From Rhizopus arrhizus (taxonomy: Eukaryota; Mucoromycota; Mucoromycetes; Mucorales; Rhizopodaceae), in NCBI GenBank assembly GCA_024220505.1, contig JAKZZE010000004.1, positions 1,488,001 through 1,552,000 on the forward strand: a stretch of 64,000 nucleotides of DNA, written 5' to 3'. The number at the start of each line of letters is the position of its first letter. Positions within the stretch are counted from its first letter, which is position 1. Position numbers and translations under genes: made by a program. The notes under the pieces are model-generated. The model made no database searches. It was not told the origin of the DNA and worked only from the letters and a program-made list of their open reading frames with translations. This document shows, piece after piece, positions 1 to 18,361 of the stretch.

Positions 1-1580
1 ATGGATACTGCATGAAACTATCTCAAACATTGATTGTTTGTACCTCACTAGAAGGGGCATTTATTCGTCGATTATCTGATATGGGCAATAGTTATTGGTG
101 GAATTTGATATTGTTAAAGGGAATTTTATAAACATCCGGCATTTTTTACTTGTTTACATATGTTTGGAATAACAAATTTTAATACGACCCAACCGGTTGC
201 TATCATAATTTTTCACATTCTTGACATGATTAGAATGTTGCCAGTGTATAAAAGCGCTTACAATTCCTTTATTCTAAATTTTAAATTTTCTTATTTAAAT
301 TATTTCTCTTTTTTATCTTATTACCAATCGCATGCCTAAACGACTGCCAGAAGAAAAAGTAAACGATCTCAAGCAAGCATTAACTGGATCCACATCAACG
401 TACGATATTGCTAAGGAGGTTGGAGTACATGAATCAACTGTTAGTAGATACTCTAGGCGGTTGTTTTCAAATAGGACAATGGGCTCAGCTGGTAGACCTA
501 CATTAGTCTCCAAAGTGACGAAGCGGCTAATCAAAAGAAAAGTCATTGAAGGGGTTCTAAAGACTGCCAAAGAGGTACACCGGGAGCTGGTTCAACTTGG
601 CTATGATATCTCATACCAGTCAGCAATTAATGTCCTGAAATCAATGGAGTTCCATTCTTCAATAAAAAAAAAAGAAGCCGTTTCTGACAAAAGCTCATAT
701 GCAGCATCGATTAGAATGGGCCAAGAAGCACCAGGATTGGACAGTGGAAGAATGGCGAAAAGTCGTCTTTTCTGATGAAACCAAGATCAACGTATGGGGC
801 TCTGATGGTTGTAAGTATTATTGGAAAAGACCAAGTGATCCTCTTCAACCGCATCATCTAGAGTTTACAGTCAAGCATGGAGCCGGCAAATTGATGATGT
901 GGGGCTGCATAACATCTGAAGGACCAGGATATGCTTGTCAAATTTACGATGGGAACATGAACGCGGATGTTTATCAGCATATATTAGACACTACACTTCG
1001 TGATACTATGAAGTACTACAATTTCAACTGGTCCAACATTTACTTTCAGCATGATAATGATCCAAAGCACAAGGCAAAATCCACAATAGCCTGGTTAGAT
1101 AATCATCAAGTGCGCTATATTAGCGATTGGCCAGCTCAAAGTCCGGACTTAAATCCAATAGAACATGTATGGCATCAACTGAAGTTAAAGCTCAGCTGTT
1201 ACGAACGTAGAGCAAAGAATACGGATGAGCTTTGGGAACGAGTAGAAAAAGCATGGAATGAATTTGATAAAGAACTTTGCCAAAGGTATATCGATAGCAT
1301 GCCGGCAAGAATTCAAGAGGTTATTAATAAAAAAGGAGGACCAACTAAATATTAATAAATAAACCCATTTCGTTCAAATTTTCGTTTTTTCAAATTTTCA
1401 AATTGCGCGCCTCATACTTCCTTCAATACTTATCCAATGGGGCTTAAACTCTTTCGGATTTTTCAAGACATGTAGGAAATCTACTATGTAGAAACAGAAG
1501 CAGTTTGTACCATTGTGACAGGATGTACGCTACAAAAACTGAGAAAAATGGATTCCTTGCAGCAATTTTTTGACCTACTG
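1..1580 (+). mobile_element. Tc1/mariner element, family A, copy 1 (left end outside window)
   Basis: The right end is an inverted-repeat terminus that reads inward as CAGTAGGTCAAAAAATTG and stops at 1580. It is followed by the TA target dinucleotide at 1581-1582. By comparison with the complete copy at 9695-11332 (1638 bp), about 60 bp of the left end lie before base 1. The element carries one transposase gene (332-1355). It is inserted in the C-terminal part of a CACTA-like transposase relic, whose reading frame runs into the terminal repeat. The two family-A copies are very similar, so both insertions look fairly recent. Confidence 0.93.
332..1355 (+). pseudogene. Tc1-family transposase, frameshifted
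   Basis: This was a transposase of about 340 aa that cuts and rejoins DNA at TA sites. The start at 332 (MPKRLPEEK) opens an N-terminal helix-turn-helix region (residues about 1-110). The DDE catalytic region follows, with FSDETKIN, QHDNDPKHK and SPDLNPIEHVW marking the three acidic residues in Tc1 DD34E style. A run of ten A at about 664-673 replaces the nine A of the other copy. This shifts the frame and splits the gene into 332-775 and 699-1355. The total length of 1024 nt against 1023 nt in copy 2 confirms a single inserted base. No other break is seen, so it is a young pseudogene. Family assignment is firm; present activity is very unlikely. Confidence 0.92.
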
Positions 1581-2707
1581 TATATTTTTGTCCAAGCAAG
1601 TTTATATTTTTAAATGAATGAATAATATTGCTGATAAACGTGCCAGGGATGAGTGCATAGGTATAGGTGTAGTAATTAATTAATGATTCATAGTGTTCTG
1701 GGCATATAAGTTGAGTTCGATTGTCGAAATTTAAAGGAAAGGATGTGGGTGGCAGAGGCTCACTACCAGTTATTGTTGAATTGAATAAGCTAGGTCCGTC
1801 TATGAAACGAGAGTAATCAAATGGCGTTAAACCACTCTCGTCATTCGTAACCTCACCTATCTCTTCTATAAATTTAATTAGTAGGAGTATGTCTTCGTTT
1901 GTTGAATTTATAAAGGAATGTAAAGAATATACTAGATCTTGTGTGTGAACATTTTGAATAAACATAGTAGCATAAGTGGTTTCAAATCCAGTCTTAAAAT
2001 TGATGTTGATATGTTTCATATCGCCATTGAGACGTTCAAAGCCATAAAGCCAAAAAGAGTATGAGGGACCAAAGTCCAGGAAGCTTTCTTTTAAATGAAG
2101 ATGCATATGCATATTTGGGGTGGGCATAGATTCACCATACAGCTCGACACAGGTCTTGCCAAAGTTTTTCATCAATAGATGTGCGGTATCTATGTCTTCT
2201 ACTGTGATGGAAGGGCCAGTGACCAGCTTCACAGCATCGACATACCGCAACCAGTTTGTAAAATGTTCACCTGCCAGTTTTTGTTTGAGCAGGAAAGGTG
2301 ACAGCACAACAACCCAGGTTCTCCACTCATCTGATTTCATATTAGCAAAAGCACCAGAGATTTTTCCTATTTTTTTTTAAAAAAAAAGAAAAAAAATAAG
2401 TATTTTGTTCCACCATGAAATAAAGCTTTATTCCATGTATATATAAACACGATCAAGCAGTATTACATACCTTCAGATAGCTTAGCGTATTGCTGAGGAA
2501 TGCTGATAGTAGTCGACTCTGTTGCCATTGCTGGAAAATCAGTAGAAACAAGCAAGCCAAAATCCTGCCAGACTTCAATCATTTTTTTAGGCGTTCCAAG
2601 AAACAAGTTATGCATTGGATCGACAGTTACATATCTCACCACATCAAAGTAAGGAAGTCGATGTACTTCACTCCACTTTGTACCAGAACTTGCCTGTTTT
2701 TCTTCTT

Positions 2708-3047: not shown

Positions 3048-4309
3048 TTCTTGTTGTGCCTTGTGCGTAGCAGTCAACCAGTCATACGCATCAAATCTTT
3101 GCTGTTCCCACGTTCTTTGCACCCAGTTTTCATCGTTGAAATCAGAAAAGTTTGGCTTTGAAGACCTGGTACCAGTTGATAGACGGCCAAAAGCAGTTGA
3201 GCACTTGTTACATGCTTTAGTAGCCATGGCGCCCATGTATCCAGCTACTTTTCTTGCTGCAGGCATATCACAATTGATGGACATCAATGCCACACGAACT
3301 AGTTCTCCGTTAGGATTTTCGTAAGTGGGCATTATAACACCATTGTACAGTACAAGCAATTCATCTACCAATGGCTTCAAGAAGTTTTGGATTTGATCAT
3401 CATTGGGCTCATGTGGTCCAGGAATAACACCTGCCAAAACGATGTTGGAAAACTTCATACGTGTATTTCTTGGCAGATTGTTGATTGCAAGGTAAATGGC
3501 ACCACTAGAATGCTTCATGTTGTCACTTGGCTGGAACCAATCCACATTCAAGGATACCATCAATGATCTTGGTTGACTGGTAAAAATTTGCCCGTTTGAA
3601 TCCACAAGCTGATTCCAAACTCTGCCATCGTATATGTCGAACATAACATCTTCATCAACTGATCTTCTTCTCCATTGCTCAATTTGTTGTTCAAAACTGG
3701 GTCGCATAAAGAACTTTTTTAAAGTCTCAGTAATTGAGTTGTAGGGATACTCAAGCACTGGCTTTAAACTGCTGCCTGCAAAAAGAGCATTTCCACATGG
3801 TTGTGCTTGTCGATAAGGGTTGTGAGGGAAGCGTACATAGCCACAGGAGCGAGAATGCAAGCTTCCAGAAGTGTAAACGCTTCGACAAGCAGAGCAAACA
3901 AGAAAACGGGACAAACCATTGCTGGCAGTGGAATAATTGACCATAGTACGGGCAGTAGAGATCTTTGTAGGAATCTCCATACCATGGCCAAGGGAACGGA
4001 CAAAGAAGGAAAGAAAGGCCAACAAGTCTTCACCGGCTTTCACCGAGAGGTGCTTTGCTTGAAAAAGCACAATGAACAACAGCAAGAGGTGACGAAGCTG
4101 TTCTTCATTACTCATTCCTTCCTCTTCGTCAATATTCATTCCGTCTAACAAGTTGCAAAATACATTTCAATAAATAAAACCTTTCTTATATTAAATACTT
4201 TGCTGATTAAAAATATACCTTCAGTTACTGGTTCAGGAATGGCTGATGAGTATTCGACAGTTTCCTCCCCGTTGTCGTTAGCTTCAGATACTCTTCTCGA
4301 TTCTATTTT

Positions 4310-4310
<1 letters not shown>

Positions 4311-4342
<32 letters not shown>
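4311..4342. repeat. Homopolymer T32 tract
   Basis: There are thirty-two consecutive T on the plus strand (A on the transposase strand) inside the N-terminal part of the CACTA relic. Confidence 0.95.
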
Positions 4343-4343
<1 letters not shown>

Positions 4344-4519
4344 AAAATTAGCACGTTTGGATTTCTATTGAAAAATAAAACAAAAAAACCTCTATTTCTA
4401 ACTCTGTCGATAAGTTCATGACCTCTTACAGTTCTCTTTGCAAGCATTCTGAATCCATTGGGATGGTTGCTGCATTCAGAACAGGTACAAATAATTTTGG
4501 TGGTGTTGAAGTTGTTCAT

Positions 4520-5908
4520 GTTTATATTTTTTAAATTTGGAAATAGCAAAGAAAATTGGTAGAAAGAGAAAATATGCCTGATAAAAAAAAACATGTTAAA
4601 TTTAAAAAACAAAGTCGGTGCTTAAAGTAACCTTTTTTTTTTCCCTCGTTTTGTTTCATAGAATACTCTAGATGCCAAAGGCATAAGAAAAAAGGAAAGC
4701 TCAAGCACTGGTCAAATGTAAGTTTATTAAAAAAAAATAACAACCAAGTCTAATGTCGATTTCTTTTTTTTTTTTTTTTTTTTTTACAGTAGGAATTCCT
4801 AATGGGACACATTCGGATGATGAACATTAACCTCATGAGAGAAGCTGTTCTTTCCAACATGACAAAGCTATAAGAATATCAAACTTTTATTACTGCTTGC
4901 TGCTGAAAATTCCTCTTTGGTAACGGAAGTTGGCAATGTTAACATCTCTAATGGCTAATGGCTGATGGCTAATGGCTAATGGCTAATGGCCTAATGGCCT
5001 AATGGCAAATTACACACATGTGTAAACATGAGGTAAGTAATGAACCAGTGTAAGCTTAAAAACATATATTCTCTTGTATTATTTGTCATAAAAAATAATA
5101 AAGCCATCTATTTACTTGAAAAACAAAAACGCTGTACTTGTATGTGTTAATTATAACAAAATGTGAGCAAAGCTTCTTTATTTTTTTATTCTTTTTAGAA
5201 TATACAAGTATTCTTTTGTTATAACATAAAAGCATTTGCATTTCTATAAAGTATATTTGCTCTAGATTATTGTTTTCATTTGAATAAGGAACCTTTTATT
5301 GCTATATTCTTTTTTTTTTTCGCTGTCTTTTTTTTTTAACTGTGTCTTTTTTTTTAACTTTGTCTTTTTTTTTTACTTTTAATCTTTCAGCTTCTTTTTT
5401 TTTTTTTACTAAACGCAACTATTTTGTTACGTTCTGTTACACATTTCCAATGAGCTTAGCTAAAGATCACAGATTGCCTTCCTAATATGTATTCTTCTGT
5501 ACAAAATAATCGCACGGTGCTTTTGATTTCCGCATTTTGCCCTCAAAAATAAAAAAAAGAAAATATCGGTCTTTAAACAATGGAGAGAAATACGCTTTCC
5601 AAAAAAAGATCGTTTGTAAAAAAAGACATTTCTTTAAAAACATGAATAACTCCATGAATATTTACCCTACAAATAAAATAATAACATCGTTAAATTTCTT
5701 TATTTTTTTCGCATCTAAATCTTTTTTCAAAATTCGAAAATGATCAATACAGCAAGATTTAATTTTTTTCACGAAAAAAAGTAACAATTTGTTACCCAAA
5801 CGAAGAGCAATCTTGCGCAATCCGGTACCTAATTGGAACGATTATTTGCAGTGTTCATTTGAGAAAAAGAGGCGGCCCTGGCGAACATAGCACATATCAA
5901 AAAAAGAG
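4520..5908. other. AT-rich spacer with small tandem repeats, no convincing gene
   Basis: This is the upstream side of the CACTA relic and then the original upstream flank of the tRNA-Gln locus. It contains a heptamer array (4948-5006) and three imperfect T-run repeats, each starting gtct, near 5326-5385. The only longer open frame (5537-5743) is low-complexity and lysine/phenylalanine-rich, and I do not accept it as a gene. Confidence 0.6.
4948..5006. repeat. Tandem heptamer CTAATGG, about 8 copies
   Basis: CTAATGG is repeated about eight times with one G variant (CTGATGG) and extra C bases between the last copies. It is not the fungal telomere unit TTAGGG on either strand. Confidence 0.85.
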
Positions 5909-5922
5909 GGTCCTATAGTGTA
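5909..5922 (+). repeat. LINE target-site duplication, left copy (tRNA-Gln bases 1-14)
   Basis: ggtcctatagtgta is identical to the first 14 bases of the tRNA-Gln gene at 12938-12951. The preceding and following bases differ between the two sites, so the duplication is 14 bp and brackets the LINE exactly. Confidence 0.92.
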
Positions 5923-8900
5923 GACAAAAGATTTTTATTTAAAATGATAGTGGGTTACTTAGCCGTGGCCCTATGGGGTAAAATGGCTCACCCAAGGTAC
6001 AAAAAATATATAAATTAAAGGCAATTGTAGTGCGCATGAAGCGGTGTGTGAAATAAAAAAACTAGTCACTGACTAGAAAAAGGTAGAAAATACAAAAAAG
6101 TAGTGGGTTTGCAAAAAGAAAATAAAATAACAAAACAAAAGAACAAAATAAAAGAAAAGTTGTAACAAAGTATAGTTTGTTTGTTGGGTTGAACGCACGG
6201 GAGGGTTGAGAGAGAGGCAGAAGTAGAGTTATTCAGTCACGTCAAGGACTTGCGGCAACAGCAGAGAAGGTTTACCATTAGTATAATACCAATTGAGAAA
6301 TGTTGAGCCTGAAGTGTCCAAAGCATCGCCAGTGAACGTCTCATCAGGATGGCAGATTTGATCTATTTCCAGGAGTATTTTGCTGATTTCTGGCCACCAC
6401 GTCGACCAACGAGAGACAACGTGAGTGTTAGCAGTGTTTTTCTTGGCTGGTTTACTGGGCAGCGTATTCAAGACGTAATCCAGAGGATTAGGAGGCGTAA
6501 GAATAGCCACATCCAGACGAGAAGCGACAGACAAACAAGAGAGGAGATGGTTTCGGGACGCATGAGGGTGTCCACAGCTACACGGCGCAGGACGGCCAGG
6601 CAACCAGCCCATTTTCCACCGAAGGAGACGACTTCGCTCATACTTGCTCATAGGGATGAACAAAATGGGGTCGACGCCAAGAACACCACGGCAGGCACAC
6701 AACAGCACCGGAGGGAAGGAAGAAGCACGCATTAATCGTAAGGAGCGAGTACGGTAGTCTAGGATCGATTGACGCAGCTGCTTTGACTGTGTGTAATAGG
6801 CTAGACGATCTTCTACCGTAGTGGTTGCACCATTATACTGAGGATCTCGCCAGATAGGATTAGCACGTAAAAGGGCTGGCCAACGGAACCGTTTGTACTG
6901 GGGGGCCGTTTCAGTAAAGGAGCGAATGGTGTGCAGTAGCGTATCCTCTGGCAAGAAGTGAGTACGTAGGATGAACTTCAATACCAAAGTATGGGCTCGT
7001 TCGTGCATGGCAGGGAGGGATGTCATGTGTCGAAACACCGTGGTAGAGGCTGTACGATGTCCACCAAAAGCGAGACGTAGACATTGGTCTTGAGCCTTGT
7101 CAAGCAGCTTCAGGTTCTTCATTGTGAACAGACAGAGACACAAACCATATTCCAGCTTGGGTCGGATAAATATCGCGTACAAGCGGCTAGCAGTAAGGCG
7201 AGAGAAGCTTGGAGCATGGAGGCCCAGAGGCTGCAATGTATTACGCATGGCAGGCAAGGCAGAGGCAATGTTGCGTTTAAGCAGTTGGTCAGTAGCAATA
7301 GCGCCTTTGGAGTCGAAAGGGATACCCAAATATGGGAAAGAGTCAGCAATGGGTATTGGATCACCATACAAACGTAGAGGAGGGGCACCATAGATCGTAG
7401 GTGAGTTAACTACCACACACTTTGCTGGGTTCCATCGATAACCAAGTTCCATAGAATGCTGAGCAGCTCGACGAAGAAGACGGGGCATTACGTCAGGTGC
7501 AGCGATAATTACCACATCATCGGCATAGAGCAGGCAATTGATCCATAACCCAGAGTATTCTCTACGTGGCATGGTACCAAAGACACGGGAGGAAATAGGT
7601 AGAGGGACAGCACGGAGGACAGCAGGAAGAGAATTGATATATATGGAATACAGGAAAGGCGATAGGATAGAGCCTTGAAGCACGCCAGTCTTGGGCCAAA
7701 AGGAACGAGAAGAATGACCGTTGATTAGTACCTGTATACTCACTTTGTCAAACAAGCTTTGAAGAAGACCAAGGAGGGGTTCAGAGATGTATGTTTCAAG
7801 TGCTCTCCAGATGGTCGCACGGTCAACAGTATCGTAAGCAGATTTGATATCTAAGAACGCCAAAACAGGGGCTTCACCATAATGATCCTCTGCATGTTGT
7901 CGACACAGCTCATGAAGACAAAGAGCCTGGTCAAGAGTACTACGGCTTCGGCGAAATCCACCTTGAACAGTATCAAGAGGGGGTGCCGAGGATTCAAGTT
8001 CATCAAAGATGCAGAGTTCAAGCAGCTTGCGTAGAACCGAGGTCAGACTGATAGGGCGAAAGTTGCCTGGTTCTAGCGGGTTACCCTTCTTATAGATTGG
8101 GACAACCTGGGCAGTACACCAAGCAGCAGGAACAGTGGACCACTTCCAACAGAGACAAAACAAGAGAGTAAGTACAGGTACCAACTTTGGAGCAATTGGT
8201 AACAACATTTCTGTTCTTAGATCATCAACTCCAGGAGCTTTGCGACGGGACAGGCGTTTGACCAAAGTATCACGTACCGTAGATTCTGTGAAAGGACAGG
8301 TGATTAGGTCAATTGCATGAGGGCCAGAAGGAATTGGAGGCGCTGGATAACGAGAAGCAGGGAGCGACGCACCAGAGAAAACTTGCTTGAGGTGATTAGC
8401 CATAGTATCAGCAGCAGCTTGGGGACCATTAGGATGATTGAACGTTGGGGTAATCGCTCGATTACGCTTGACCCGACGAACAATGGATGCGGTCTCTTGC
8501 AATGGACCAGAGGAGAGCTTCTTACAGAATTGTCGCCAAGTTTCACGTCGACGACGCTTCATGTCACGATTGAAGTAGTGACAAGCGAGCTGGTATCTGT
8601 CCCATGCTTGACACTTCTCAATTCCCACAGCACGGTGCCATTCCTTACGGCAGTGCTCACGGTGGTCAAAGGCATCTTGCAGCAGTGGAGTCCAAAACCA
8701 AGAATTGTTAGACTGTTTAGGATTCTTGCGACCGACTGAATCATCGAGAGAGGAATGAATGATACCAGTCAATTCAGCAGCTAACGCATCATGGTCAGGT
8801 TTTTGAAGATAGGATTGGCTATGTGGATCAAAGAAGGTTAGCAATCGTTCATGAAAGGAGAGAATGCGATCACTAAAGATAGACACATAGGTGCAATCTT

Positions 8901-9694
8901 CTTCAGTCAGGCGAGACAAATTCCATAGCTTACGAGGGTGAGTAGGCGGTGGTGGTGGTAGTTCTGGAAGTAGACAAGTCAATGACACAGGATGATGATC
9001 AGAGCCCATGTTTAGGTCTTCTCTTACAACCAGTGTAGGATCGACAAGTTCTTGGGTGCTGATGAACAAGTCAATGACACTCTTGAACTGAACACCAGAC
9101 TGATGATGTACTCTTGACTGTGAGCTGTAGGTGGGGACCCCAAACGCCAGACGTGAATTCCAACAGGTGAGACCCGTGTCTTCAAGCCATTCCTGGAGCA
9201 ATGTGCCTCTGGTGGTGGTGCGAGTGTCGCCTAGTAGTAGTTGGTGTCGAGCATTAATATCGCCACAGATAATAGTGTTCGACTGTGATGGGTGCGTTTG
9301 AGTAGGTAAGGAGCGTAGGATATCAAGTGCTTCAGTGTCAGACAGAGTGGAAGGAGGTAAATACACACAATGTATTAACAGAGAGGCAACTTGACAAGAA
9401 AGTACATAGGGAGAGGAAGACGGAAAGTGGGTCACTGGGTAGGGACACTCAGGGTTGACAAGAAGTGTGATGCCCATTTTACCACGATATGAATCCTCAA
9501 CCGGAAGGCCATAGGTGTGATATTGCTGCCAGTGAGTTGGATACCGCAGAGGTGGCAGCAGCCATGTCTCTGACATAAAAAGGAGCGACGAAGAAGAAAG
9601 TGAATCAGTGATAGCACTAATAGCGTGGCGAGCACAACCATTAGCGTTCCATATGGTGATGTTGAGTTCTTGGTAAGGAGTGGACTGGGACATA

Positions 9695-11332
9695 CAGTAG
9701 GTCAAAAAATTGCTGCAAGGAATCCATTTTTCTCAGTTTTTGTAGCGTACATCCTGTCACAATGGTACAAACTGCTTCTGTTTCTACATAGTAGATTTCC
9801 TACATGTCTTGAAAAATCCGAAAGAGTTTAAGCCCCATTGGATAAGTATTGAAGGAAGTATGAGGCGCGCAATTTGAAAATTTGAAAAAACGAAAATTTG
9901 AACGAAATGGGTTTATTTATTAATATTTAGTTGGCCCTCCTTTTTTATTAATAACCTCTTGAATTCTTGCCGGCATGCTATCGATATACCTTTGGCAAAG
10001 TTCTTTATCAAATTCATTCCATGCTTTTTCTACTCGTTCCCAAAGCTCATCCGTATTCTTTGCTCTACGTTCGTAACAGCTGAGCTTTAACTTTAGTTGA
10101 TGCCATACATGTTCTATTGGATTTAAGTCCGGACTCTGAGCTGGCCAATCGCTAATATAGCGCACTTGATGATTATCTAACCAGGCTATTGTGGGTTTTG
10201 CCTTGTGCTTTGGATCATTATCATGCTAAAAGTAAATGTTGGACCAGTTGAAATTGTAGTACTCCATAGTATCACGAAGTGTAGTGTCTAATATATGCTG
10301 ATAAACATCCGCGTTCATGTTCCCATCGTAAATTTGACAAGCATATCCTGGTCCTTCAGATGTTATGCAGCCCCACATCATCAATTTGCCGGCTCCATGC
10401 TTGACTGTAAACTCTAGATGATGCGGTTGAAGAGGATCACTTGGTCTTTTCCAATAATACTTACAACCATCAGAGCCCCATACGTTGATCTTGGTTTCAT
10501 CAGAAAAGACGACTTTTCGCCATTCTTCCACTGTCCAATCCTGGTGCTTCTTGGCCCATTCTAATCGATGCTGCATATGAGCTTTTGTCAGAAACGGCTT
10601 CTTTTTTTTTATTGAAGAATGGAACTCCATTGATTTCAGTACGTTAATTGCTGACTGGTATGAGATATCATAGCCAACTTGAACCAGCTCCCGGTGTACC
10701 TCTTTGGCAGTCTTTAGAACCCCTTCAATGACTTTTCTTTTGATTAGCCGCTTCGTCACTTTGGAGACTAATGTAGGTCTACCAGCTGAGCCCATTGTCC
10801 TATTTGAAAACAACCGCCTAGAGTATCTACTAACAGTTGATTGATGTACTCCAGTCCCCTTAGCAATATCGTACGTTGATGTGGATCCAGTTAATGCTTG
10901 CTTGAGATCGTTTACTTTTTCTTCTGGCAGTCGTTTAGGCATGCGATTGGTAATAAGATAAAAAGAGAAATAATTTAAATAAGAAAATTTAAAATTTAGA
11001 ATAAAGGAATTGTAAGCGCTTTTATACACTGGCAACATTCTAATCATGTCAAGAATGTGAAAAATTATGATAGCAACCGGTTGGGTCGTATTAAAATTTG
11101 TTATTCCAAACATATGTAAACAAGTAAAAAATGCCGGATGTTTATAAAATTCCCTTTAACAATATCAAATTCCACCAATAACTATTGCCCATATCAGATA
11201 ATCGACGAATAAATGCCCCTTCTAGTGAGGTACAAACAATCAATGTTTGAGATAGTTTCATGCAGTATCCATAGACAACCAGCTGTAAAACCGGTATTTT
11301 GCAATTCCTTGCAGCAATTTTTTGACCTACTG
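9695..11332 (-). mobile_element. Tc1/mariner element, family A, copy 2 (complete, 1638 bp)
   Basis: Both ends are present as about 29-bp inverted repeats beginning CAGTAGGTCAAAAAATTGC. They are flanked by TA at 9693-9694 and 11333-11334. The transposase is on the minus strand. The element sits inside LINE ORF2, and its TA target overlaps the second in-frame ATG of that ORF. Confidence 0.96.
9920..10942 (-). pseudogene. Tc1-family transposase, nonsense mutation
   Basis: The 1023-nt gene codes for 340 aa from ATG at 10942 (MPKRLPEEK) to 9920. It keeps the helix-turn-helix region and the DD34E motifs FSDETKIN, DNDPKHK and SPDLNPIEHVW. The A run that is shifted in copy 1 has the in-frame length of nine here. 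A single C-to-T change turns the Gln codon before HDND into TAG (near 10226), just ahead of the second catalytic Asp. The catalytic core is therefore truncated. Downstream the frame is open to the normal stop. Confidence 0.93.
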
Positions 11333-11375
11333 TAGATGGTATAGGGTTAGTGATATATGTGTTACTGTCAAAACT

Positions 11376-11380
11376 CATTA
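11376..11380 (-). promoter_or_regulatory. TAATG stop-start overlap of LINE ORF1 and ORF2
   Basis: On the minus strand the ORF1 stop TAA (11380-11378) shares its last A with an ATG (11378-11376). The frame of that ATG continues, across the Tc1 insertion, into the endonuclease. Overlaps of this kind are known to couple ORF2 translation to ORF1 termination in some insect LINEs such as SART1. Coupling here is inferred. Confidence 0.8.
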
Positions 11381-12712
11381 ATAGTTATTGACAGATTCAC
11401 CAACACCTGAAGGTTTGTCAGAGGAAGCTTGGGTGTCATCGGTAAAGGTGTTGATGACATCGGTCATATCATCATCAGTGTGCTGGTTATCAACGTGCTC
11501 AACAGAACCCGAGTCAACAACCACAGCTTGATCGTACTGTGCCTTGGTGATCCACTCTTGCTGGTGGAAGAAGCGGGCTACAGCCAAACGAACAGGTAAA
11601 CGAATATGCTTAAGAGCACGAGAGAGACGTTGTTGGTGGAGGTCGACGCATTTAGTCTTACGTTCCTCTTCAGGTAGAGAAGCGAAGGAAGGATTACGCA
11701 GACGGGCAGTATCAAGAGGATCGAATGACTCCAAAGGCTTAACACCAGCCTTATTAAAGTGATCCAGCAGTTCAGCAGCATAACTGTTGTGCACAAGAAG
11801 AGCAACAACGTGGTTATCTGGATAGTGAACATCTAGCACACGAGCATTATTGATTTTGAGCTTATTCAATTTAGCTCGAAGGCTAGAGTAAGCCTCACGA
11901 AAACGGCAAGGCAGGTATATGTACTGATACCTATGACCACCAGTAAGAGGAGCAAAGGTACGAGCGACAGCCTTCATCTGCCGAGGCGTGATACGACGTC
12001 GTCGAACAGGTTGGGACATCTTGGGTGGTGCAGGAGACGTGGCAGTGGCGGCACTAACGGCAGCATAGGACTTGTTAGCGGCAGGCACAACTGGAGCAGA
12101 CTCTGGTGAGGACCAGCGGGAGACAGGTGTACCTTGACTAGTCGTGGGTGGTGTTGGTGTCGAGGGTGCAGAGGTGGGTTTGGAGTGAACGGCACGGTCA
12201 GCCTCCAAAGTCGCTATACGCTGTTGTGCGGTCTCAAGGGCAGCACGCAGGCGCAGGTTTTCTTCAAGCAGGTGCTCAAAATTGGCCAGTCTTTCATCAT
12301 AGCGACGAAATTGTGCCTGGAAGATTGAAACCCAGTCGTGGGCAGGTACAGCGGGAGTACAGGTTGGTACCTGGGGAGAAGTAGGTAAAGGGGTGGTTTC
12401 CTTTACATTGTCTAATGCAACTTGTGATGTAGGAGGAGCAGTGGCTACACCAAAGTCGAAGGGTCCGGTCACGTTGACGGCGAAGTTGTGGGCAGGTGGT
12501 TGTTGTGACATTACGGAAGTAATAATGGCAGGAGCTGGACTGGTGCGAATGTCGATTGGCACAAGTGGTGGCGTACGGACAGAGAACAGACGCTTGCTTG
12601 GAGTGAGTGGTGAGGGTGATTCAGGAGTGTTTACAGAGACGGATTGGTGAGTCTGTGTAGACGGATGGATGCTTCCTGATGTGGGTTGATCTACCTTTGC
12701 TAATGATTCCAA
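11378..12712 (-). CDS. LINE ORF1 protein (RNA-binding, coiled coil)
   Basis: The predicted protein is up to about 444 aa. A Pro/Ser/Thr-rich N-terminal half is followed by a leucine heptad-like stretch (RLANFEHLLEENLRLRAALE, about residues 139-158). The C-terminal half is folded and basic (YIYLPCRFREAYSSLRAKL through LAVARFFHQQEW). This matches the layout of LINE ORF1 proteins, which bind element RNA and assemble the ribonucleoprotein. No CCHC knuckle is visible. The 5' end is uncertain. The frame is open from an in-frame TAG at 12850-12848, but no ATG occurs before codon 68 (12511). Translation may begin there or at a near-cognate codon, or the original ATG is mutated. The gene lies directly upstream of ORF2 with a TAATG overlap. 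Confidence 0.82.
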   Translation of the reverse strand: MESLAKVDQPTSGSIHPSTQTHQSVSVNTPESPSPLTPSKRLFSVRTPPLVPIDIRTSPAPAIITSVMSQQPPAHNFAVNVTGPFDFGVATAPPTSQVALDNVKETTPLPTSPQVPTCTPAVPAHDWVSIFQAQFRRYDERLANFEHLLEENLRLRAALETAQQRIATLEADRAVHSKPTSAPSTPTPPTTSQGTPVSRWSSPESAPVVPAANKSYAAVSAATATSPAPPKMSQPVRRRRITPRQMKAVARTFAPLTGGHRYQYIYLPCRFREAYSSLRAKLNKLKINNARVLDVHYPDNHVVALLVHNSYAAELLDHFNKAGVKPLESFDPLDTARLRNPSFASLPEEERKTKCVDLHQQRLSRALKHIRLPVRLAVARFFHQQEWITKAQYDQAVVVDSGSVEHVDNQHTDDDMTDVINTFTDDTQASSDKPSGVGESVNNY

Positions 12713-12937
12713 ATCAAGATCTTGAGATGTCGAAATGGTGCTACGGATGTCAGAGATCTTAGTGCCTGAGAGTGTTGGCAGGTCTTGGGGTGCTTTGGGT
12801 GTGGTTGACTGTATCTTTACAGGTACGTCTTTACTGTGTATACTGTGCTAATACTCCTCTTTAAGAAAATCGCTTGATGGCAAAACTTTTATCCGGTGGC
12901 GGAGCCAAGTAAAAGTTTCGAAATACGAAAGAAAAGT

Positions 12938-13009
12938 GGTCCTATAGTGTAATGGTTATCATATCGGTCTTTGAATCCGGTGATCCGAGTTCGATTCTCG
13001 GTGGGACCT
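12938..13009 (+). tRNA. tRNA-Gln (anticodon TTG)
   Basis: The sequence folds into a complete cloverleaf. Acceptor stem GGTCCTA pairs with TGGGACC. The anticodon loop CTTTGAA (12969-12975) gives TTG at 12971-12973, and the T arm is CCGAG-TTCGATT-CTCGG. The A box (tagtgtaatgg) and B box (agttcgattct) are intact. There is no intron. One weak pair closes the anticodon stem (T-T). A T6 run follows 30 bp downstream. The gene remains whole because the LINE insertion duplicated its first 14 bases. Confidence 0.95.
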
Positions 13010-13039
13010 ATAAAAATATCTAAAAGATATACGGTCAAA

Positions 13040-13045
13040 TTTTTT
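13040..13045 (+). terminator. Probable RNA polymerase III terminator of tRNA-Gln
   Basis: Six consecutive T lie 31 bases past the tRNA 3' end, just before the gypsy LTR. Confidence 0.6.
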
Positions 13046-13051
13046 GTACCA

Positions 13052-13172
13052 TGCTGTCGTATATTTTATTCTCATTTTGGATAGTGTTACAAATATTCCT
13101 TTTTTGATACTTCTACCTACAGTTGTCATCCGCAGTATAGTCGCAGTAATGTCGCAGTACTTTCAATATTAA
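13052..13172 (+). repeat. 5' LTR of gypsy element, left part
   Basis: It aligns with 21045-21176 of the 3' LTR, except for a missing catagtcgcag-like unit and point changes. It stops abruptly after caatattaa. Confidence 0.9.
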
Positions 13173-15014
13173 TGTGAGAATGATCGCTTTTTGGATGAAA
13201 CGCAAACCAACTCCGACATGGATTGTTAAAATAATATTAGTTATTTTAACAACCATTGTCAAAGAAATAATAATAGTCGCAAAAATAAGAAATGCTAAAA
13301 AAATAAGAAAAGCTAAAAAGAAAAAAAAAATATTATTCATATATATATATCCCATCTTTTTGTGAAGAAATTGTCAGTCAGTTTAAATAAATCATATATT
13401 TTTACTCAATAATTAACAAACTTTAACAAGAAAGTCCCTGTTCACTTAAACTTTTTACTCTACTTTAACTTTTATCAAGAAACATCGTATTGATCTTACA
13501 AATAAGATCTGGTGGTCACTACTTAACAAGCATCTGCTTAAATTCTATATAAAACAACAACTTACAAGGCTATCTTAACCTTACAATCAAGCTTCACAAG
13601 CAAACTTAACTCAAATTAACTCACTTACAACAAGCCAATCTATATACAAATAACATTAACATTGTAATGTAACACACACAACGTGAAAATATTAAAAAAT
13701 TGTACCACAAGAATTGAATGAATACAGACAACTGTATGAATACAGACAACTGTATGAATACAGAAAGTTGTATGAATACAGACAGTGTCTGAATTCAGAT
13801 GGCTATGTAGATTCATACAAAAATTTTCCACACTAAAAACCAAAAACAACAGATAATCAGAAAACTCAAAAAACATATAAATACCTCGACATTTTAGCAG
13901 CAATCAAGACTTACTTACTGACTTACTTACTTACTTCACTCTTAACTTTTGTTTTATTTTACTTTATTTACTTTACTTTTTGATTATTTGAATAAATATC
14001 ATATAAAGTAAATCTCTTTTGTTTTTCTTTTATTTTACTTAACATCAAGAACAAGAAGTCCCTTGAAGTATATACACTTCATTGTAAATCCTTTTTATTT
14101 CATTTTATCTTTATTTTACCTTTTTATTTTTACTTTACTTAAAACAGTCTGATCTACTTATAAGATCTGGTGGTCACTTTACTCAAGCAACTTATATTCA
14201 AATCATTACTCTTTCTGGAATCAAATCCTACTTAAATCTTTGATCTTATATCAAGCCTCTCTTAAATCAAACCTATTTAACACTATATAAACCATATAAA
14301 CTCCAATCTCACAGTAACAAAGAAGCTAAAAAATGAAAAAAGTCAAAAAAATGAGAAAGGTCAAAAAAATGAAAAAAGTCAAAAAAACGAAAAAAGTCAA
14401 AAAAATGAAAAAAGTCAAAAAAATGAAAAAAGTCAAAAAGAAAAAAAAAAATTTACAGCATATAAATATCCTAACCATTTAGTCAAAGAAAAAGGACAGT
14501 ACAGTTCTACTCATATATTTTATTATATATTTTATTCAATAAACAGGCAACTTTCTCATAAAAAGTTCCTGATCCCTTTATTTTTTTTATCTTTACATTT
14601 TACTTACTTATATTTGATCTTACATAAAAGATCTGGTGGTCACTACAGTACCTTACTTTGAAATTTCAAAAAAAACTTCTATATAAAGCACTCAATAAAC
14701 CCACAAGGTGTGGAATAGGCGTGTTGTTCTCTCGATTAATAAAATTAACAAATAAATCAAATAATCGATGAGTCTCTTGAACCTCTTTATTGAGTAAGGA
14801 CGAGAGAGAGAGCCCATTCAATACAAACTACGTCTTAGAATATAACAATATGATTTAGGGTCCGAGGTAGTACGGTATAAATTGTGTGGGCTGTTTATCG
14901 TACATAGCACGAAGTGCTATATATGATATACAGTCAAATTATTAATTTTAAGTGATCTCACACGACATTAAGGAAATTATTAGAGTAAATACGACACAAG
15001 GTTACAAAAATAAC
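13173..15014. mobile_element. 1.84-kb non-coding insertion in the 5' LTR: three related LTR-like units
   Basis: It has no reading frame of note. The motif aagatctggtggtcact occurs three times (about 13503, 14162, 14629), each preceded by a gatct/tta-rich near-palindrome and by a TATA box (such as tataaatatcc) about 150-300 bp upstream. An 18-bp A-rich array lies at 14331-14450. A short direct repeat, atgaatacagacaactgt and variants, occurs near 13717-13800. The part from about 14714 on has its own LTR-like look. It resembles stacked promoter/leader ends of an unclassified retroelement. No 5-bp duplication was found. Confidence 0.55.
14331..14450. repeat. 18-bp A-rich minisatellite, about 6 copies
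   Basis: The unit gtcaaaaaaatgaaaaaa (18 bp) repeats about six times with few changes. Similar degenerate A-rich blocks precede the unit near 13260-13330 and the Tc1-B insertion at 21525-21630, which suggests one dispersed family. Confidence 0.85.
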
Positions 15015-15191: not shown

Positions 15192-17900
15192 TAAACAAGC
15201 AAGCTTTACAACATAGAAGAAAGTTATATGTCAAATCCAAAAAGGAGCCTATCACAAGAACAGAAAATATTTGAAATTGAAGAAAGAGTATACAGATTAT
15301 TAGCACCAGAACTTAGAAGCAAATACACTTTATATCGTAAATTACCTACATATCCCAAAGAACAGAGACAAGATTTCGGAACCAAAACATCAGAATATTT
15401 AGACACATTAGCAACTCAACTAGCAAATAATTTTACGCTTAACAGTAACAAACAACCTACATTTGAAGAAGATACAATATTAGAAGACGCAGAAATGAGT
15501 AATACCTATAACAATAACATTAATATGCAAGATTTGGCACAATTAATTGCTTCGGCTGTAGCAACAGCAATCAATAATAAACCAGAAAAAGAACGGAATA
15601 ATGTACGAATTCCAATGCCATCAACTTACAACGGAGAAAGAAATGCGGCCGTCATAAACTTATGGATTCAAGAAGTAGAAAGATATCTTAATTTTTATGA
15701 TGTCCCCAAAACTAGATGGATCTCCTATGGTGTAACTCTTCTCCGAGATCGTGCACAAAAATGGTGGAACCAATTATCACAGAAAAATGAAGAATCAACA
15801 ACATGGGAAAAATTTAAAGTTGATCTAGAATATACATTCAAGCCATCGTATTCGGAACATGCTGCAAGAGATCGACTAGCATCAGTAAAACAAACCCGAT
15901 TGGTGGCCGAATATGTGGATGAATTCCAAGATATATTATTGGATCTGCCTAGAGTATCTGATGACGAAGCGTTGGATAGATTTGTCCGTGGATTGAAAGA
16001 TGACGTTAGAATACATGTTATGACTAAGGATCCACGTTCATTAGAAGAAGCAATGAGATTCGCTATTGCATATGATAGTGCCAAACAGACTGGGATGTTC
16101 ATACCTACAACTCGTCAAGATCAAATACCAAACGATCCAATGGATTTATCAGTATTGATACAACAACTCAATGCTATGAATATGGCAAACAATGGCCATC
16201 ACCAGCGAGAACGAGTGCCTTTAAGAAATAACCGCAACATCATTTGCCACTGGTGCAAGAAATCCGGTCATGTTATAGCTGATTGCAGAACTAGACTTCG
16301 TGAAGTAAGAGAGTTTGAGCAAAATAGAATGCGACAAAACCGAGGAAATAATAGACAACAATTCAACCGTCAGCGTGACTATCGTCAATATAACAGTAAC
16401 AAAGTGTACCATGCTGATCTGATCGAATTTGAACCGAGTAATGTTGACAATGCAAACAAACCACGTAGTAATTTTACTTCCATTGATAGTGTTAATAAAG
16501 ATTCTCTACTTGAACTTTCCCCTTATCCTTTTGACTTTACTTTGGATCGTGGCTTTCTAATGAATGCATCTTTGACTTCTTCATTATTACCTACCTATAC
16601 TATTCATATTAATGGTCAACCTTTTCAAGCATTGATCGATAGCGGTGCTAGTGCAAACTATATTCATCCTAAGATTTTAAAGGTTGTTGATTCATATCGC
16701 CCTGTTAGTAACCAAGCAGTGGAAACGGCCAATGGTGAACAATCGATTATCTCTGGTGAAGCCACATGTACCATGGAAGTAAAGGGGGAGGGTAAGATCT
16801 TTATTAACACTTTCAAGGCTTTTGTCTTTGAATCTAAATTTGATGTCATACTGGGTACCTCATGGTTAAAACAAGTCAAACCGAAGCCAGACTGGTTCGA
16901 TAGTACATGGACTATTACTTTGATTGATGGTTCATCTATGACAATAGAACCTTACAAGGAAAATAATAATGATCAAAGAAAGCAAGAAGATATTAATGTA
17001 GTAATTTCTGCAAAACAATTGAATCGTTTAGCCGAGAAAAAACAAATATCGGAATGTTACCTAGTACATGCTTCATTTGATGGAACTACATTAAATTACC
17101 TAAACAACATAAATGAAATCGATGTCAATTGGGCTACAGAATTCAGCAAAGAATTTCCTGAAGTATTCAAAGGTCACATTTCTGGACTTCCACCTATGCG
17201 AGATACTCAAGAAATTATTGTCACAAGACCTGATGCTGTGCCTGTATCTAGACCACCGTACAAAATGTCGCCTTTGGAATTAAATGAATTACGCAAGCAA
17301 CTTGATGATCTTTTAGCTAAGGGATTGATTGAGCCATGTGCTTCGGAATGGTCAAATCCTGTTCTATTTGTCCGAAAACCAAATGGTGATCTACGCATGT
17401 GTTGTGATTATAGAATGCTAAATAAGGTGACATTAAAGCAAAAGATACAATTACCTAGAATAGATGAATGTTTAGAAAGACTTCATAATGCTAAACATTT
17501 TACTTCATTGGATCTCACTAATGGTTTCCATCAACAAAGATTGTCTGAAGCTGACTCAGCAAAAACGGCTATAAGTACCAGATATGGACAATTCTGTTGG
17601 AAAGTAGTCCCCTTTGGTCTATCAAATAGTGGTCCTGCTTTTCAGAAGATGATGAACAATGTTTTGGCTGAATATATCGATAAATTTGTGATGGTGTACC
17701 TGGATGATATTTTAATATTTACCAATGGTGATGAACAACAACATAAGAAGCATGTTCGTATGGTGTTGGAAAAATTGAATGAAGCAAAGCTGATAATCAA
17801 CAAGAAAAAATGTCTTTTTAATCGTAAAGAACTAACGTTTTTGGGATTCAATATTAGTGCACAAGGAATTAAGCCGGCTCCTCAAAAAGTTGATGCTATT

Positions 17901-18361
17901 TGTTGTCAACATAGTTATTTTCTATATGATATCAGTTGTATTAAAATAAATAACGATACACAAAAAGATTAAACTATGATTGAACAATTCCACACTTTTC
18001 CAAATTTAGAACAATAAGATCGATATCTGTCATCCTAGAGAGTCCAATCAATTGTCAACCCCAAAAGTAATTAGATCAAAGTTAATTGACTGGTTATTAT
18101 TTCTATTGTTCAATTTCAGATGCATATATTAGAACATCGACAAGCTTTAGCTTAATCATTGGTTCTTCAGCACGACATCGTGACCGAGTCTATATCTTTT
18201 ATATCTACGCTCACAAAGAATATAAATAGATGCCAACTTTTTATCCATAAAGCGAGGCCTTTTCACAATATAAAGAAATCTGCAATAAAGAAGGATTTTA
18301 ATTTTATATTGCTGCTATTGTTTTTTTGTTTAATTTTTTATTTAATCTTGCGATTAAAACA
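17901..18361 (+). mobile_element. Solo LTR in gypsy pol, RT/RNase H junction
   Basis: It is 461 bp, from TGTTGTCAACATAG to TTAAAACA, flanked by ctatt at 17896-17900 and 18362-18366. It has a TATA-like tataaatag near 18220 and aataaag further on, in plus orientation. Confidence 0.92.

Follow-up and report, generated by a model that had tools for sequence, protein, structure and literature searches.

LINEs of Rhizopus arrhizus inserted after base 14 of tRNA genes

In Dictyostelium, the LINEs TRE5 and TRE3 are found at tRNA genes, where several of them at one gene form tandems, two traits that they share with the Rhizopus LINEs described here; TRE5 lies ~50 bp upstream and TRE3 ~100 bp downstream of the gene (PMC5391098). 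Also alike are LINEs specific for tRNA genes, namely NeSL-1_TV (tRNA-Pro), LIN15_SM (tRNA-Arg) and LIN25_SM (tRNA-Glu), which are placed near the RLE-type NeSL clade (PMC4640811). Further likenesses are found in Dewa of zebrafish, a target-specific LINE linked to tRNA genes, and in the Dada DNA transposons, which sit inside tRNA genes, use family-specific tRNAs and in some cases duplicate TAGCTC in the A box (PMC3706591). Within the Mucoromycotina, Grem-LINE1 of Mucor, an L1-like LINE, likewise has two ORFs and lies in clusters (PMC7377519).

The LINE at tRNA-Gln(TTG)

The window, that is, the whole 64-kb stretch of R. arrhizus DNA that we analysed, belongs to an assembly of 50.3 Mb in 41 contigs. 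Its sole tRNA call by ARAGORN is tRNA-Gln(TTG) at 12938-13009, and a LINE of the lineage's family A lies antisense to it, with its 3' end at 5923 and its 5' end at 12937 (Table 1). The first-pass annotation had recognized here a two-ORF fungal LINE between exact 14-bp repeats of the tRNA start, and its reading is supported: the bases at 5909-5922 and 12938-12951 are identical, ORF2 carries endonuclease and reverse transcriptase (RT) Pfam domains, an ORF1 frame occupies 11378-12511, and the tRNA-Gln whose 5' end the duplication was said to rebuild is structurally complete. The fungal origin agrees with the protein relatives of ORF2, which include a Rhizopus arrhizus protein (100% identity over 67% of ORF2), one of Mucor velutinosus (54% identity) and weaker ones named Phycomyces, Lichtheimia, Gilbertella, Choanephora and Dichotomocladium. 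Two points were absent from that annotation, the antisense orientation and a Tc1-like insert within the LINE. The 14-nt target site duplication (TSD) and the lack of long terminal repeats are those of a LINE; in a repeat search of 4000-14500, no long direct repeat at the LINE ends was present among the 20 largest of at least 60 repeat families.

Table 1. Features of the LINE insertion in the window
Feature	Position	Strand	Basis
Stub: tRNA-Gln bases 1-14, upstream TSD copy	5909..5922	+	Exact repeat of 12938-12951
Family A LINE, 7015 bases including Tc1-like insert	5923..12937	-	Bounded by stub and tRNA; insert-free full-length relative on C39
LINE 3' terminus, AAATAAAAATCTTTTGTC in LINE sense, without poly(A) tail	5923..5940	-	Identical terminus in 5 complete copies
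ORF2: APE-type endonuclease and reverse transcriptase	6229..9693	-	Pfam Exo_endo_phos_2, RVT_1
Tc1-like transposon inside LINE, flanking TA	9693..11334	-	31-nt perfect inverted repeats; absent from C39 copy
Part of Tc1-like transposase frame	10226..11113	-	HTH_Tnp_Tc3_2
ORF1, 377 aa: predicted coiled coil and RRM-like domain	11378..12511	-	ORF list; weak structural support
LINE 5' untranslated region, directly upstream of tRNA	12512..12937	-	Position; C39 and C2 copies share 5' end
tRNA-Gln(TTG), complete	12938..13009	+	ARAGORN
Downstream TSD copy: tRNA bases 1-14, holds most of box A	12938..12951	+	Exact repeat of 5909-5922

The Tc1-like element (inverted repeats at 9693-9723 and 11304-11334) separates ORF1 from ORF2; it sits at the start of the latter and cuts off the first 15 codons of the uninterrupted frame (1154 aa in the window against 1169 aa in the family A copy on contig C39, which lacks the insert and is otherwise 99.7-99.8% identical). 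Window positions 1-1582 hold a second Tc1-like copy, which shares 99% identity with the LINE-borne one across 1583 bases, and an open frame at 15228-17972, with a retropepsin-like and an RT-like stretch recognized by eye, resembles an LTR retrotransposon polyprotein. In the C39 copy both LINE frames are open and overlap by 1 base. The ORF1 and ORF2 frames of elements of families B, C, D1 and D3 overlap by 1 or 4 bases, and such overlaps suggest that ORF2 may be translated by reinitiation; D2 has no ORF1 of at least 200 aa within the stretch examined.

ORF2 joins an APE-like endonuclease and an RT within one frame, which places the element among APE-type LINEs; an APE domain with conserved motifs is present, and no RLE family appears among the Pfam matches to E 1. 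RNase H, which fungal Tad-like LINEs carry, is also absent from the ORF2 matches to E 1, as are zf-RVT and zinc fingers from those of ORF2 and ORF1. For ORF1, without Pfam matches at E 0.001, a coiled coil and an RRM-like domain are weakly predicted. A profile of 46 ORF2 relatives matched human L1 ORF2p over both the endonuclease and RT domains (E 1.9e-64) and R2 over the RT only (E 4.3e-40); L1 ORF2p was likewise the best solved-structure match of ORF2, ahead of R2, among the few LINEs with solved structures. The endonuclease motifs are invariant across all six families aligned, and dN/dS could be estimated for 7 of 15 family pairs, at 0.10-0.18, the remaining 8 being saturated.

Families and their tRNA targets

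With the 478 bases at the LINE 3' end as probe, six genomic copies of the family A 3' region were found. In five of these the 3' end is complete; the C17 copy is missing its final 85 bases, so that its 3' junction is uninformative. The proposed check, whether other copies start at base 14/15 of tRNA-Gln genes, bore out the position and showed tRNA-Gln to be one of two targets: all five complete 3' ends are followed by a 14-nt tRNA start, three by GGTCCTATAGTGTA, that of tRNA-Gln(TTG), and two by GGTTTCTTGGTGTA, that of tRNA-Val(AAC). The Gln 14-mer occurs 11 times in the 50.3 Mb (8 intact tRNA-Gln genes and 3 family A 3' junctions) and the Val 14-mer 15 times (10 intact tRNA genes and 5 stubs before a LINE 3' end, of which 2 belong to family A and 3 have different 3' ends). 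The same 14-mers read backwards occur nowhere in the genome (0 and 0), and a chance match is rejected by these controls together with the tRNA-type starts at 96 of 102 ends described below.

Among the best 40 of 1288 ORF2 candidates, those that were scored, there are relatives at 63-67% identity, some in tandem. Across families A, B, C, D1, D3 and E, 96 of 102 3' ends carry a 14-nt tRNA-type start ending in A14; these ends were found by exact patterns, which miss mutated 3' ends, or by the probe, and tandem neighbours among them are not independent events. The 96 ends show 18 distinct starts, all with T8, R9, Y11 and A14, which is the box A form; 13 of them, accounting for 81 ends, were confirmed as tRNA genes by ARAGORN, and the other 15 ends carry one of 5 starts without a confirmed tRNA gene, including GCCGTGATAGTATA, for which a pattern with the expected next bases GTGGT matched no gene.

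The sets of tRNAs differ between families. All 18 family B ends are followed by GCCCGTTTAGCACA, and its arrays on C4 and C40 end at tRNA-Thr(TGT). In family C, 13 of 15 ends lie at tRNA-type starts: Met(CAT) in five cases, in one of which five extra bases precede the stub, Phe(GAA) in three, Lys(TTT) in two, Thr(CGT) in one and GCCTTCTTGGCTCA, not matched to a tRNA gene, in two. The latter start also marks the only one of four D3 ends at a tRNA-type start, while nine of ten D1 ends are at Ser-type starts (four Ser(CGA), four Ser(AGA) and one unconfirmed). Family E, defined by its 3' terminus, is at tRNA-type starts in 50 of 50 ends; 44 match a box A pattern that has G at base 1, and the remaining six carry TCTTCGGTAGTATA, the tRNA-Asp(GTC) start. 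Its other starts are Pro(AGG) (22), Gly(TCC) (8), Val(AAC) (2), Gly(GCC) (1) and three unconfirmed ones in 11 copies. The starts used by family E have the endings GTTTA, GTGTA, GTATA, GTTAA and GCGTA. One of the two family E neighbourhoods compared with ORFs (L036) contains an ORF2 ~43% identical to that of family A; no recognisable ORF2 lies within 3 kb at the other (L035), nor is there one at a Val stub outside the family E pattern (L029).

The six ends away from tRNA-type starts belong to C (two), D1 (one) and D3 (three). In three of them CTCA precedes the cut, as in the tRNA targets of C and D3. One exceptional C copy, located just upstream of tRNA-Gly(GCC), has a ~12-base duplication of its own, a D3 copy on C35 shows no clear duplication, and no tRNA was found near three other exceptional ends in the stretches examined. 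The D2 elements, counted apart, were not at base 14 in any of the three copies read: in two, the insertion interrupts tRNA-Val around base 8-10, and the third has a different sequence as its site.

Stacks, arrays and the mode of insertion

In all 23 copies read at both ends, the stub matches the adjoining tRNA (table compiled by hand); two of these, A on C2 and D1 on C34, contain later inserts and were paired by position. With these two and the window copy set aside, tRNA and stub lie a nearly constant distance apart: 5.0 kb (E), 5.3 kb (C), 5.4 kb (A, B) and 5.6 kb (D1). Many LINE 5' ends are separated from the tRNA by short, variable bases. Stacks occur at single genes: one intact tRNA-Val gene on C38 comes after a row of three stubs, of which family A left one and family E two, and behind a D3 copy on C4 there is a C copy, truncated at its 5' end, whose stub is identical. 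Long head-to-tail LINE arrays extend over C4:246-337 kb and C40:944-993 kb, both anchored at tRNA-Thr(TGT), and over C8:1179-1226 kb, anchored at tRNA-Pro(AGG).

Occupancy was read at 57 tRNA genes, obtained from 63 of 2878 Rfam candidates (the other six being tRNA-Gln genes examined separately), with the 5' ends of A, B, C, D1 and E and a D3-like one as references, so that all counts are lower bounds. A known LINE 5' end lies at most 15 bases from 12 of the 57, with one more, diverged match farther off; such ends are present at three of eight tRNA-Gln(TTG) and five of ten tRNA-Val(AAC) genes and upstream of none of the 12 tRNA-Lys(CTT) genes, though their starts share GCTCA with family C targets. 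After a few variable bases, the 5' ends of families A, B, C and E open with CTTTTCTTTCG or CTTTCTTTCG, pyrimidine-rich and common across families. Other sequences recur at tRNA genes: a shared tRNA-like antisense segment directly upstream of some tRNA-Val, Gly and Asp genes (L028, L074, L183, L186), LTR-like ends (...tca) at a distance of 5-10 bases upstream of tRNA base 1, and an element end ...attatttgcagtg ~40-55 bases upstream of that base (L059-L115). Both of these end kinds are also present in the window at 5770-5908, upstream of the stub.

We are highly confident that the window LINE is one copy of a site-specific LINE lineage that inserts after A14 with a 14-base duplication, leaves the tRNA rebuilt and can strike it again. 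As read from the junctions, the APE-type endonuclease would nick the tRNA sense strand after A14, inside the Pol III box A, and the 3' end of tRNA bases 1-14 would prime reverse transcription from the fixed, tail-less 3' end of the LINE RNA, by analogy with target-primed reverse transcription in other LINEs. A cut of the other strand at tRNA base 1 would yield the duplication of 14 bases that we observe, and the outcome would be the observed arrangement, a LINE immediately 5' of a complete tRNA gene and antisense to it, with the 14-base stub at the LINE 3' end. Target-primed reverse transcription fits the orientation, the 14-base duplication, the variable 5' junction and the fixed 3' end. Because the target is rebuilt, entry can be repeated; each new LINE at a tRNA gene would displace its predecessors away from that gene, an order suggested by the stacks.

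As to how the site is found, we lean towards box A being read mainly by the endonuclease, perhaps helped by Pol III factors: the base-exact cuts and the CTCA kept by some stray insertions argue for direct reading, and the tRNA-Lys(CTT) genes left unused and the wide range of starts in family E for further factors. Targeting chiefly through docking to the Pol III complex (TFIIIC/TFIIIB), with the endonuclease only finishing at an exposed box A, appears unlikely, if still a serious contender. Docking has been proposed for Dictyostelium TRE5-A, and it would suit the fact that every start is the box A of a tRNA gene, the five different endings used by family E and the family C copy just upstream of tRNA-Gly(GCC); against it stand a cut exact to the base, unlike that of TRE5-A, the different tRNAs of each family and the CTCA before the cut in three of the six ends off tRNA-type starts. 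That the 14-nt tRNA sequence is instead a tail carried by the LINE, whose insertion would then not be tRNA-specific, has hardly any probability left. Every complete family A 3' end does bear such a sequence, but stub kinds vary within a family (2 in A, 5 in C, 8 in E), so that stubs are not part of the element, and each stub equals the tRNA at the other end of its copy in 23 of 23 cases; we therefore rejected this reading.

The tandem arrays could also have arisen from unequal recombination or segmental duplication after one insertion, as regular spacing (~5.0 kb for E on C8, ~5.4 kb for B on C4) and the similar ORF2 scores of neighbours would have it. As a replacement for repeated insertion this is improbable, given that the few bases separating the stub from the LINE 5' end are not the same in C4 neighbours, that the stacks on C38 and C4 mix families and a 5'-truncated copy, and that E stands beside other LINE 3' ends. 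Repeated insertion and recombination may both be at work, and recombination may have enlarged some arrays.

Meaning and comparison with described elements

Many of the site-specific LINEs described have a single target. Tentatively, we propose that one Mucorales LINE lineage addresses the tRNA box A, its families each reading their own set of tRNAs, and that a target made self-renewing, since every insertion rebuilds box A, lets one tRNA gene give rise to LINE fields tens of kilobases long, in which the tRNA takes a LINE 5' end as its upstream region; LINE-rich regions of Mucorales chromosomes may have been built in this way. The shared cut position on different tRNAs makes changes in endonuclease specificity readable from sequence within one genome, and the stubs record, in order, the insertions that a tRNA gene has received. 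The rebuilt target also suggests a way for a LINE to live in essential genes, and base-exact, target-restoring insertion could interest those who work on gene addition.

Both LINEs of the RLE type within tRNA genes and TRE elements in their vicinity were already known. An APE-type LINE inside tRNA genes, and a fungal host for any such element, appear to be new, as we found no report of either in the literature searched, which omits most subscription papers. Grem-LINE1 is described as pericentric, with zf-RVT in ORF2 and zinc fingers in ORF1, in a paper whose main text does not contain the word "tRNA" (PMC7377519). Dewa differs in inserting in the tRNA-Leu spacer, and Dada in its DDE transposase, its 6-7 bp duplications and the lack of reverse transcription (PMC3706591); a Dada-type DNA transposon is rejected for the window element by its RT-element domains and 14-nt duplication. 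TRE5 and TRE3 stay outside the gene and are thought to be targeted via Pol III complexes, whereas the Rhizopus LINEs lie inside it, at base 14/15 rather than at the ~50 bp upstream or ~100 bp downstream typical of TRE (PMC5391098). In contrast to the RLE-type NeSL and LIN elements (PMC4640811), finally, the Rhizopus lineage is APE-type, lives in a fungal host and uses at least 13 tRNA species.
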